NCBI RefSeq assembly: GCF_009601705.1
Contig: NZ_CP045687.1
Coordinates: forward strand, 189,527 to 253,526
Origin: Sulfolobus sp. E5-1-F
GTDB lineage: Archaea > Thermoproteota > Thermoprotei_A > Sulfolobales > Sulfolobaceae
DNA length: 64,000 bases
Direction of reading: 5' to 3'
The translations under genes were made by a program, and so were the position numbers. The first letter of the stretch is position 1. The number at the start of each line of letters is the position of its first letter. The notes beneath the pieces are model-generated. The model did no database searches, was not told the origin of the DNA, and saw only the letters and a program-made list of their open reading frames with translations. Of the stretch, positions 44,315-47,722 are shown one piece after another.

Positions 44315-44555
44315 TTTAAGTATTACTCTACTTTTAGCTTCAAGAGAAAATTCAGAATTTCTCAGCAGTTTATCTTGTCTTTTGAATAATTCTCTAAAAA
44401 CTTGTACATAGATTTATTGAATTATTTGCGTTTGGGACACTCTCTCGATGTCACGATTTATCACATCTATCTTAAAGACTTAACTTAAGTTTCTTCCTCG
44501 ACCATGTTCCCCAGATGAGGGAGTACTATTCCCCTAAGCTAACTAACCTAATAGG

Positions 44556-44564
44556 GTTTATATT
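44556..44564 (+). promoter_or_regulatory. TATA box of the nucleotidyltransferase-like gene
   Basis: gtttatatt is centred 27 nt before the ATG at 44587 and excludes the in-frame ATG at 44515. Confidence 0.5.
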
Positions 44565-44586
44565 GAGGTTAAACCAAATAACTATT

Positions 44587-45342
44587 ATGACAGTAACTAA
44601 GGAACAACTACTGAATAGGGCGATAGAAGTAATAGATAAGGCTGATAATGAAGGAATAACTTTAAGAGCTATTGGAGGTGCAGCAATCGCGTTAATAGCC
44701 AAAAACGGATCAGAATTATATCCAAGAGTATACAAGGATATAGATTATTTTGGACTTTCGTCTCAAAGTAATAAGATATCTAAATTCTTAGAAGGCATGG
44801 GATTAATCCCAAATAAGAGGTTTAATGCATTGCATGGACATACTAGATTAATGTTCTTTGACCCCATAATTAACTCAACTGTAGATGTCTTTTTGGACGA
44901 ATTCGTGATGTGTCACAAACTTGTATTAAAGGATAGATTAAGAATAATGAAATATACTATTCCGACTTCAGACCTATATCTGACAAAAATGCAAATAATA
45001 CAACTTACCGAAAATGATAAGAAGGATATAGCTGCACTACTTTACGATATCGAGTTAGGAGAAAGAGATAACGAGAAGACTATGGACTATAATTATATTG
45101 CGAAAATCCTATCTGAGGATTGGGGATTCTATAAAACTTATACAATAAATCATGATAAAATATTAGACTTCATAAAAAACGATAAAAACAGGGAAATAAT
45201 AGAACCCAAACTATTAAAATTAAGGGAAATAATAGAGAAACATCCTAAGAGTATTAAATGGAAAATGAGGGCAAAAATTGGAGAAAAAGTAAAGTGGTAT
45301 GAAGAACCAGAAGAAGTAAATACTAACTTCACTCAACAATAA
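44587..45342 (+). CDS. Nucleotidyltransferase-like protein
   Basis: 251 residues from the ATG at 44587 (MTVTKEQLLNRAIEVIDKA). The segment LRAIGGAAIALIAK, then YPRVYKDIDYFGL and STVDVFLDEF, resembles the nucleotidyltransferase fold of AbiEii/MNT-like proteins (GG-x-A...D-x-D...acidic). The G-S motif is altered to GGAAIAL. It may be a toxin-like or orphan transferase; no antitoxin gene is adjacent. It is followed by the glutamine synthetase-like gene after 35 bp. Confidence 0.6.
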   Translation: MTVTKEQLLNRAIEVIDKADNEGITLRAIGGAAIALIAKNGSELYPRVYKDIDYFGLSSQSNKISKFLEGMGLIPNKRFNALHGHTRLMFFDPIINSTVDVFLDEFVMCHKLVLKDRLRIMKYTIPTSDLYLTKMQIIQLTENDKKDIAALLYDIELGERDNEKTMDYNYIAKILSEDWGFYKTYTINHDKILDFIKNDKNREIIEPKLLKLREIIEKHPKSIKWKMRAKIGEKVKWYEEPEEVNTNFTQQ

Positions 45343-45377: not shown

Positions 45378-46667
45378 ATGAACATAGAAAAAGAACTTAG
45401 AGAAAAGGGTGTGGAAATTTTAAGATTCACTTGGGTAGGGTTAGATGGTTATATTAGAGCAAAGGGAGCATATATTGACCACATAGATGAGTTATTAAAA
45501 ACGGGTATAGGCTTAACAATGGCAATGATGAGCTTTACCCCAATGGATTATATAAGTCCCCATGGGACATTTGGACCACAAGATGAGGACGTATTCCTTA
45601 CTCCAGACCTTAGCACACTCTCAATTTTTCCACCATCGGCCATTGTATTATGTAACTTATATAAGAGTGGGAGTCCATGGAATTATGATCCTAGAAGTAC
45701 ATTAATTAGAGCAATAGAAAAGGCGAAAGAACAATACGATTTCGACTTCAAGTCAGCCTTCGAAATAGAGTTCTATTTGACAAAGGATAGAAAACCAGTA
45801 GATGACGCTAGGTGTTTCGATCCTTCTGCATTTTATAATAATCAAATAATCCCAGAAATTGCTAAAACGTTAAGACAAATTAACATAGAACCAATAAGAA
45901 TAATAAAGGAATATGGACCAGGGCAGTATGAATTTGATATATTGCACAAGGATGCGTTAAGAAGCGCTGATGAGGTTGTTATATTTAAGGAAGTGGCAAG
46001 ACAAGTAGCAAGTAAACATGGGGTTGAGGCAAACTTTATGCCAAAACCATTTAATAAAATGGCTGGATCTGGTTTACATTTGAACATTAGCGTATGGAAA
46101 GATAATCAGAATTTGTTTTATAGCCCAAATGATAAGTATGGACTCAGTGACTTAGCTTATAACTTCATAGCTGGTTTATTGGAACATGCTAAAGCGTTAA
46201 CTGCAATAGCAGCGCCTACTATCAACTCCTACAAGAGACTAGTTCCAGGCTCTTGGGCGCCAACTAAAATAACCTATGGATATAACAATAAGTCTGCCAT
46301 GATAAGAATACCAACACCATATCCCGGAATGTCACAATTAGATAGAAGAATAGAATATAGAGTTCCAGATCCCTCAACAAATCCGTATCTTCTCTTAGTC
46401 GCGGTAATAGAGGCAGGATTAGATGGGATAGAAAAAGGATTAAAGCCTTCAGAAGCTGTTAATGAAAATGCGTACTATAGAAAAGATATTGATGACATAC
46501 CAAGAAATCTTAGAGAGGCACTGAATGAACTAAGAAAAGATACCAGATTAGTGGAAAGAATAGGCAAAGAGATTATTGATGAATTCATAAAGGTTAAGCT
46601 AGCCGAAGTAGAGGAATATGAAAGCTTAGTAACTGATTGGGAATACGAGGTGTATAGAAGATTATAA
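45378..46667 (+). CDS. Glutamine synthetase-like enzyme (GlnA family, group with amidohydrolase)
   Basis: 429 residues. The catalytic GS domain has EIEFYLTKD (metal-binding Glu), GPGQYEFDILH, KPFNKMAGSGLHLNISVW, INSYKRLVPGSWAPTKITYGY and RIEYRVPDPSTNPYLLL. The N-terminal half (LRFTWVGLDGYIRAKG; SPHGTFGPQDEDVFLTPDL) is shorter than in canonical GlnA. Together with the following amidohydrolase it forms the two halves seen fused in FluG-type proteins, so it is more likely a gamma-glutamyl-amide or -polyamine ligase than the housekeeping glutamine synthetase. Confidence 0.85.
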   Translation: MNIEKELREKGVEILRFTWVGLDGYIRAKGAYIDHIDELLKTGIGLTMAMMSFTPMDYISPHGTFGPQDEDVFLTPDLSTLSIFPPSAIVLCNLYKSGSPWNYDPRSTLIRAIEKAKEQYDFDFKSAFEIEFYLTKDRKPVDDARCFDPSAFYNNQIIPEIAKTLRQINIEPIRIIKEYGPGQYEFDILHKDALRSADEVVIFKEVARQVASKHGVEANFMPKPFNKMAGSGLHLNISVWKDNQNLFYSPNDKYGLSDLAYNFIAGLLEHAKALTAIAAPTINSYKRLVPGSWAPTKITYGYNNKSAMIRIPTPYPGMSQLDRRIEYRVPDPSTNPYLLLVAVIEAGLDGIEKGLKPSEAVNENAYYRKDIDDIPRNLREALNELRKDTRLVERIGKEIIDEFIKVKLAEVEEYESLVTDWEYEVYRRL

Positions 46668-47722
46668 TAGATTCCCATGCCCACTGGTTCTCTGCTGAGG
46701 TAATGAGTGAAAAGGAGTTTATAATGGCTTCAGCTGAATCTTGGCTCGAAAACGAAATAAGTGCAGATACGTTTACGATGAATCAATTGAGGCCATTCTA
46801 CCTATATTTAAGGAATGAACTTAAAGTATTATTAGGTAAGAATTTCATAGAAGAAAGAAATAAGTTGATCAAGAATGATCCAGTAAGCTACATGCGATTT
46901 CTATTTGATGATGCTGGAATTGAGGGATTTGTAATAGATACTGGATTTGGAAATAAGGAAATGGAAATACCTGCAAAATTAAAGTTACTATTCAGAATAG
47001 AGAGTATTATTAACGATAGCATCTTCCAAATGCCGTTCGATAAAGCCTTAGAGTACTTTGAGGAAACCTTAAGGGAAAAAATAAGAAAAGAAGGATATAA
47101 TGGTTTTAAGAGTATAATAGCTTATAGAACTGGATTACAAGTGAACTGCAATATAGAACAAGCTAGAAGAGATTTTTATAGTAACGAGAGGGAGTGGTTT
47201 GGCAAGGTCGCAAAGGGATTTAGAGATTATCTACTTTGCGAAACCTTGAGAATAGCTAGAGAGTTAAAAGTTCCCGTACAAATTCACACAGGAGCTGGAG
47301 ATAGAGATATTAAGCTAGAACTATCAAGACCTTCATACCTAACTAATGTTGTTAGGAAGTATGAAGGAAAGGTGATTTTCGTGCACGCTGGTTATCCTTA
47401 TCACAGGGAGGCAGCTTGGATGTCCTATCTTTTTCCCTCAGTTTACCTAGACACCTCGCAAGTAATACCATTTGCACCCTTAGCAGCTTATACTATACTA
47501 AATGAAATTTTTGAGGTAGCCCCATTAAACAAGGTGATGCATGGCTCTGACGCGTTTCATATTCCAGAAATAGCTTGGCTTGCAGCTAAACTAGCTAAAA
47601 AGGCTATACATAAAACCACAGAAATTATGATTGAAAAAAATATATTAAATGAAAAAGAGGGTAAAGAAATGGTTGAGAGATTCTTATACTATAATCCTAA
47701 GGAAATGTTTGGGTTCGATTAA
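46661..47722 (+). CDS. Amidohydrolase-2 family metal hydrolase, probable AUU start
   Basis: TIM-barrel hydrolase. Metal ligands: the HxH pair in IIDSHAHWFSAEV, a His in PVQIHTGAGDRD, another in IFVHAGYPYH and the Asp in MHGSDAFHIPE. The first ATG in frame (46703) would cut off the HxH pair. Upstream the frame is closed by TAG at 46655, leaving only AAG ATT ATA ATA GAT. ATT at 46661 has gaggtg 8 nt upstream (46647-46652) and overlaps the preceding stop by 7 nt, so I propose AUU as start (353 residues). Its C-terminus overlaps the convergent PNGase A gene by 39 nt. Confidence 0.75.
   Translation: MIIDSHAHWFSAEVMSEKEFIMASAESWLENEISADTFTMNQLRPFYLYLRNELKVLLGKNFIEERNKLIKNDPVSYMRFLFDDAGIEGFVIDTGFGNKEMEIPAKLKLLFRIESIINDSIFQMPFDKALEYFEETLREKIRKEGYNGFKSIIAYRTGLQVNCNIEQARRDFYSNEREWFGKVAKGFRDYLLCETLRIARELKVPVQIHTGAGDRDIKLELSRPSYLTNVVRKYEGKVIFVHAGYPYHREAAWMSYLFPSVYLDTSQVIPFAPLAAYTILNEIFEVAPLNKVMHGSDAFHIPEIAWLAAKLAKKAIHKTTEIMIEKNILNEKEGKEMVERFLYYNPKEMFGFD

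Follow-up and report, generated by a model that had tools for sequence, protein, structure and literature searches.

The well-studied AUU start codons are bacterial and tied to initiation factor IF3, with infC, the gene for IF3, as the standard case; a further non-canonical start is the GTC of sigR in Streptomyces. Archaeal initiation to our knowledge dispenses with IF3 and relies on aIF1, aIF1A and aIF2 instead (see also PMC7531240). The Streptomyces infC gene uses AUC, and the non-canonical starts of infC have been missed by gene callers (PMC5472188), while current accounts give AUG, GUG and UUG as the start codons of archaea (PMC7531240). No report of AUU or AUA starts in Sulfolobales was found in the open-access literature, which is weak evidence of novelty. 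Two further systems are relevant to the locus described here. Overlapping gene pairs of the ATGA or TGATG kind, treated in PMC6728339, share a few bases in the same direction and carry a Shine-Dalgarno (SD) motif inside the upstream gene; the only Sulfolobus solfataricus pair tested in vitro, cited there and with an adjacent UGAGUG, was uncoupled. Fused proteins of glutamine synthetase (GS) and amidohydrolase domains also exist, namely FluG (PMC6478659).

The window is a stretch of 64,000 nucleotides from contig NZ_CP045687.1 of the thermoacidophilic archaeon Sulfolobus sp. E5-1-F. It contains a two-gene operon (ligase, then amidohydrolase) whose second gene is probably translated from a non-canonical start codon, for which AUU at 46661 is the leading candidate. 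The features of the operon are as follows.

45378..46667, plus strand: glutamine-synthetase-like gamma-glutamyl ligase, 429 aa (PF00120, E 1e-110)
46647..46652, plus strand: SD-like GAGGTG, a 6-nt match, 8 nt upstream of ATT
46655..46657, plus strand: in-frame TAG closing the amidohydrolase frame upstream, present in all four species with ATT
46661..47722, plus strand: amidohydrolase coding sequence (PF04909, E 1.4e-41, residues 3-352; structure 2QPX, E 7.7e-27)
46661..46663, plus strand: ATT, the most likely start codon, aligned with the ATG of orthologues L008, L010, L014 and L015
46664..46669, plus strand: ATA ATA, alternative non-canonical starts at SD spacings of 11 and 14 nt
46676..46684, plus strand: HxH metal motif H6-A7-H8, upstream of the first ATG
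46703..46705, plus strand: first in-frame ATG (Met15), an internal methionine and a false start for an automatic caller

According to the preliminary description of this DNA, the HxH motif is encoded ahead of the first ATG, and direct reading confirms that both histidine codons (46676-46678 and 46682-46684) lie 5' of 46703. As it also stated, the TAG at 46655 leaves just AAG (46658), ATT (46661), ATA (46664) and ATA (46667) before the conserved Asp, where the frame continues GAT TCC CAT GCC CAC TGG (46670-46687); this frame has no ATG, GTG or TTG between the TAG and 46703. Translation from ATT would yield 353 aa with the N-terminus M-I-I-D-S-H-A-H-W, against 339 aa from the ATG. With no canonical start before the conserved N-terminus, the protein either begins at a non-canonical codon or is short of two metal ligands and of its first strand. 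The GAGGTG, which doubles as Glu-Val codons of the ligase, lies 8 nt from ATT when counted from its last G, and 11 and 14 nt from the two ATA codons. The ligase gene ends TAT AGA AGA TTA TAA, its stop at 46665-46667. The 8-nt spacing and the 7-nt overlap of ATT with the preceding gene both stand as first reported.

The product matches PF04909 (Amidohydro_2) with 143.6 bits against a gathering threshold of 26.4, and the ATT version, from its residue 3 on, aligns with the complete profile (1-289 of 289). A search over 60 related genomes gave 20 orthologues at 60-100% identity, all from Sulfolobaceae, in every one of which D4, H6, H8, W9 and F10 are invariant, and conservation of the residues preceding Met15 is above average in all of them. 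A wider locus search with the single protein as query found no match, while a query with the alignment found 41 loci, which formed the basis of the bacterial comparison; D4, H6 and H8 are invariant in 21 archaeal and bacterial homologues, the bacterial ones at 25-34% identity. The closest solved structure is 2QPX from Lactobacillus paracasei, whose zinc ligands are H17, H19, K166, H227, H263 and D317 and whose substrate residue is Tyr171 (PMC6478659). These match H6, H8, K150, H209, H242, D297 and Y155 of the amidohydrolase, which thus retains all six metal-site residues, each invariant among the 21 homologues, as well as the tyrosine. On this alignment the binuclear metal site, made up of the HxH pair, a carboxylated Lys, two further His and an Asp, would be complete only if translation begins upstream of the ATG at 46703. 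The earlier warning that annotation from this ATG costs the enzyme two metal ligands was right, H6 and H8 being the equivalents of H17 and H19.

The four closest orthologues, from species of the genus (G000, the genome of the window, with G001, G002 and G006; 91-92% protein identity), have TAG-NNG-ATT-ATA-ATA-GAT in common, and a pattern search found these bases in those four only. The genes of the four differ at 15-38% of fourfold-degenerate sites, and within codons 1-12 all five variable bases fall at third positions (TCC/TCT, GCC/GCA, CAC/CAT, TCT/TCG and GCT/GCA; probability about 0.004 if position were irrelevant), and this restriction to third positions indicates that the stretch is translated. 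It bears directly on the possibility that the ATG at 46703 is the start after all, with the product an enzyme without two metal ligands that has been degraded or has taken on a new function. That codon is the sole canonical start in frame near the 5' end; but four species show coding constraint over codons 1-12, the HxH motif is invariant in all relatives, and loss of residues 1-14 would remove the first barrel strand from a protein that is otherwise 91-92% identical among species. We consider a start at 46703 extremely improbable, and translation from upstream of it is, on these comparisons, as good as certain.

The same divergence speaks to the quality of the sequence. Four genomes that share these codons while differing at 15-38% of fourfold sites represent neither a sequencing error nor a single clone. 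A sequencing or assembly error that masks an ATG, for which nothing speaks beyond the oddity of the start itself, would have to recur with identical codons in four genomes that have diverged and were sequenced independently, and its probability is close to nil. Since three other species carry the same sequence, it is very unlikely that resequencing would show an ATG here.

Outside the ATT group, 16 of the 20 orthologues have ATG, GTG or TTG within a few codons of the ATT site. The preliminary description had suggested looking for a canonical codon at this position in relatives, and ATG is found exactly at the ATT column in four of the 16 (L008, L010, L014 and L015), with a canonical codon nearby in the other 12. 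In L005 and L006, of the same genus, ATG precedes the ATT column by one codon; in L017 and L018 the start follows it by one codon (ATG-ATA-GAC); and the remaining canonical orthologues have GTG, TTG or an earlier ATG. The simplest history would be a single loss of the canonical start before the four species diverged, with AUU used since. The ATT of the four species is one inherited event by shared descent, and is partly held in place by the overlapping ligase codons. None of the four departs from ATT-ATA-ATA, and the comparison therefore gives no choice among the three codons.

Each of the 20 orthologous loci has the ligase gene directly upstream of the amidohydrolase. The best NCBIfam models of the ligase are GGputSyn, GlnA and GSIII, all under their curated cut-offs. 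Further upstream in the window, at 44515-45342, there is an ORF of 275 aa without a Pfam or NCBIfam match. The two genes together look like a FluG that has been split, with the ligase preceding the amidohydrolase: the two domains are the same, a gamma-glutamyl ligase and an amidohydrolase, but here they are encoded by two separate genes, ligase first, in place of one fused polypeptide.

Another reading is that a -1 frameshift close to the stop codon of the ligase joins the two into a FluG-like protein of reverse order. The genes do overlap, with their frames offset by -1, frameshifting of this kind has been documented for S. solfataricus fucA1 (PMC8211752), and fused GS/amidohydrolase proteins are known in FluG (PMC6478659). 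Against this, AGA-TTA or CGA-TTA does not allow re-pairing in the -1 frame and there is no X-XXY-YYZ heptamer; the codons at the site vary over the four species (AGA AGA, AGG AGA, AGG CGA and AGA CGA); the domain order of FluG is the opposite one; and every other orthologue has a start of its own. No stable RNA structure was found at the start site (z -0.5, with 58 of 200 shuffles as stable). A fusion is disfavoured by this lack of structure, the missing slippery site and the variable codons, and we regard it as very improbable. The preliminary description had named a frame joined with the upstream gene as an outcome that would overturn its reading; neither a fusion nor a slippery site was found, and the ORFs of ligase and amidohydrolase are out of frame with each other and separated by a stop.

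If translation starts at a non-canonical codon, the remaining choice is among ATT at 46661 and the two ATA codons that follow it. An AUA start at 46664 (MIDSHAHW) or 46667 (MDSHAHW) would be the same phenomenon with another codon. ATA at 46664 would create an ATAA overlap of stop and start that mimics the usual 4-nt ATGA; all four ATT species keep the two AUA codons; L017 and L018 start one codon past the ATT column; and AUA occupies the start site of the uS3 gene in the same genome (see below). However, the SD spacing would then be 11 or 14 nt, compared with 8 nt for ATT and 7 nt in uS3 and the TATA-binding protein (TBP) gene, and ATT is the first of the three, in a column where four orthologues have ATG. 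We therefore think an AUA start rather unlikely. AUU is favoured by the 8-nt spacing together with the full GAGGTG, which is identical in all four ATT species and mostly weaker in the relatives with canonical starts (GAAGTG, GAGGTA, GAGGTT or GAAGTT, Glu-Val still being encoded). The proposal of ATT 46661 as the probable start is thus supported as the best candidate, with ATA 46664 or 46667 less likely.

For a start at AUU, the 30S subunit would be recruited or held by the GAGGTG within the end of the ligase gene, and the initiator Met-tRNA (anticodon CAU) would pair with the AU of AUU, the third-position mismatch being tolerated, so that the product would begin M-I-I-D-S-H-A-H-W. Upstream ribosomes would stop within 7 nt of AUU, and their termination may help to supply subunits; coupling of the amidohydrolase start to ligase termination is no more than possible. 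The exact codon, the insertion of methionine and the roles of the SD motif and of coupling are what we infer from the arrangement of the sequence. The odd start codon would likely lower the yield of amidohydrolase relative to ligase. One earlier finding counts against an AUU start: in vitro, aIF1 of S. solfataricus disfavours non-canonical start codons, as cited in PMC6237735.

In infC, as here, a conserved AUU takes the place of AUG, was missed by gene callers, and is replaced by another non-canonical codon in relatives. The differences are that infC is bacterial and regulated by IF3, whereas the amidohydrolase is metabolic and has no sign of autoregulation (its product is an Amidohydro_2 enzyme and no initiation factor), and that its AUU has replaced an ATG, GTG or TTG that is seen in sister lineages. 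The ATGA and TGATG pairs treated in PMC6728339 are alike in that two genes of one orientation overlap by a few bases and the SD lies inside the upstream gene, but the amidohydrolase overlap is 7 nt and its start is non-canonical.

A partial survey for other such starts compared 1.6 Mb of the genome of the window (G000) with 1.2 Mb of the sister species G005. Among 411 orthologue pairs, 46 were flagged for conserved residues before the first canonical start and were read by eye, which left five genes with coding-type conservation. Most of the 46 were set aside: they were pseudogenes, frames that were RNA-like or antisense, or conserved but non-coding sequence ahead of an ordinary ATG. Also dropped were a HAD hydrolase (G000:C1 ~1582785), which has a TTG, and eS1 (~1569519), which has ATG at codon 2. 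Three genes are of particular interest.

G000:C1:1594410 (L130 ~14410), plus strand: start site of uS3, ATA after a strong SD
G000:C1:1457920 (L123 ~17920), plus strand: TBP gene, with no ATG, GTG or TTG before the conserved N-terminus
G000:C1:1567607-1567630 (L171-L177): KsgA rRNA dimethyltransferase, with a GTA that shares bases with the stop of the preceding gene (GTAA)

In uS3 the end of rpl22 is followed by the SD GAGGTGG and by the same spacer in seven species, and translation would begin at ATA in G000, G001 and G006, at ATT in G004, and at ATG in G002, G003 and G005. The frame is closed just upstream, and the next canonical codon in G000 lies 34 codons on. In the solved structure of S. 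solfataricus uS3, chain 9fhl_Z starts MPNIKRYF, with Met at this site. In the TBP gene the SD GGTGA is followed by ATC in G000, G001, G002 and G006 and by ATA in G005, and 17 aligned residues pass without a canonical codon. The distance from SD to start is 7 nt in both genes, one below that of the amidohydrolase, and we find both convincing as non-canonical starts. KsgA is a likely further case: GTA is present in six species and GTG in G003, there is no clear SD, and the NCBI model of the KsgA group begins at the GTA codon (model position 2 corresponds to residue 5). In other genera an ATG is nearby, except in L178 and L179, which have only ATA or GTA.

Since uS3 and TBP, both essential genes, show the same anatomy of an SD followed by AUA, AUU or AUC, the amidohydrolase looks like a member of a tolerated, SD-dependent class of starts in this genus, more than a single oddity, as far as sequence comparison can tell. 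The chances seem evenly balanced for the broader proposition that the genus routinely initiates on AUU, AUA and AUC with an SD 7-8 nt upstream, that starts drift among AUG, AUA, AUU and AUC even in uS3 and TBP, and that a noticeable share of Sulfolobales starts is misannotated. A conserved archaeal case backed by uS3 and TBP would mean that start selection in archaea can rest on the position of the SD with a mismatch at the third base, and sister species that differ only in AUA, AUU, AUC or AUG at the start site offer ready-made comparisons for testing how aIF1 governs the fidelity of starts. Annotation restricted to ATG, GTG and TTG can strip catalytic residues and shorten proteins.

The other two of the five genes, and two further loci, also have unusual 5' ends. 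In both species a TGA immediately precedes the open frame of a winged-helix/CTP-dependent riboflavin kinase (G000:C1:1454978-1455000, L123 ~14978), with a conserved KD(E/D)SN following it, and the SD-spaced TTG is in another frame and stops after three codons; readthrough, a +1 shift and an odd start are candidate explanations. In the genome of the window, isoleucyl-tRNA synthetase (G000:C1:1586667-1586700, L130 ~6667) runs for 75 codons without a canonical start and has ACT where G005 has ATG. An ORF of unknown family (G000:C1:~1307061, minus strand, L116 ~7061) has ATT 7 nt after GGTGG or GGTGA in all seven species of the genus; it is rated only a possible ATT start because the stretch also resembles a promoter before a downstream ATG. 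Lastly, a small membrane protein (RTFLAWIRTG..., G000:C1:~1427558, minus strand) appears to be frameshifted close to its N-terminus relative to G005, through either a pseudogene or a sequence error.
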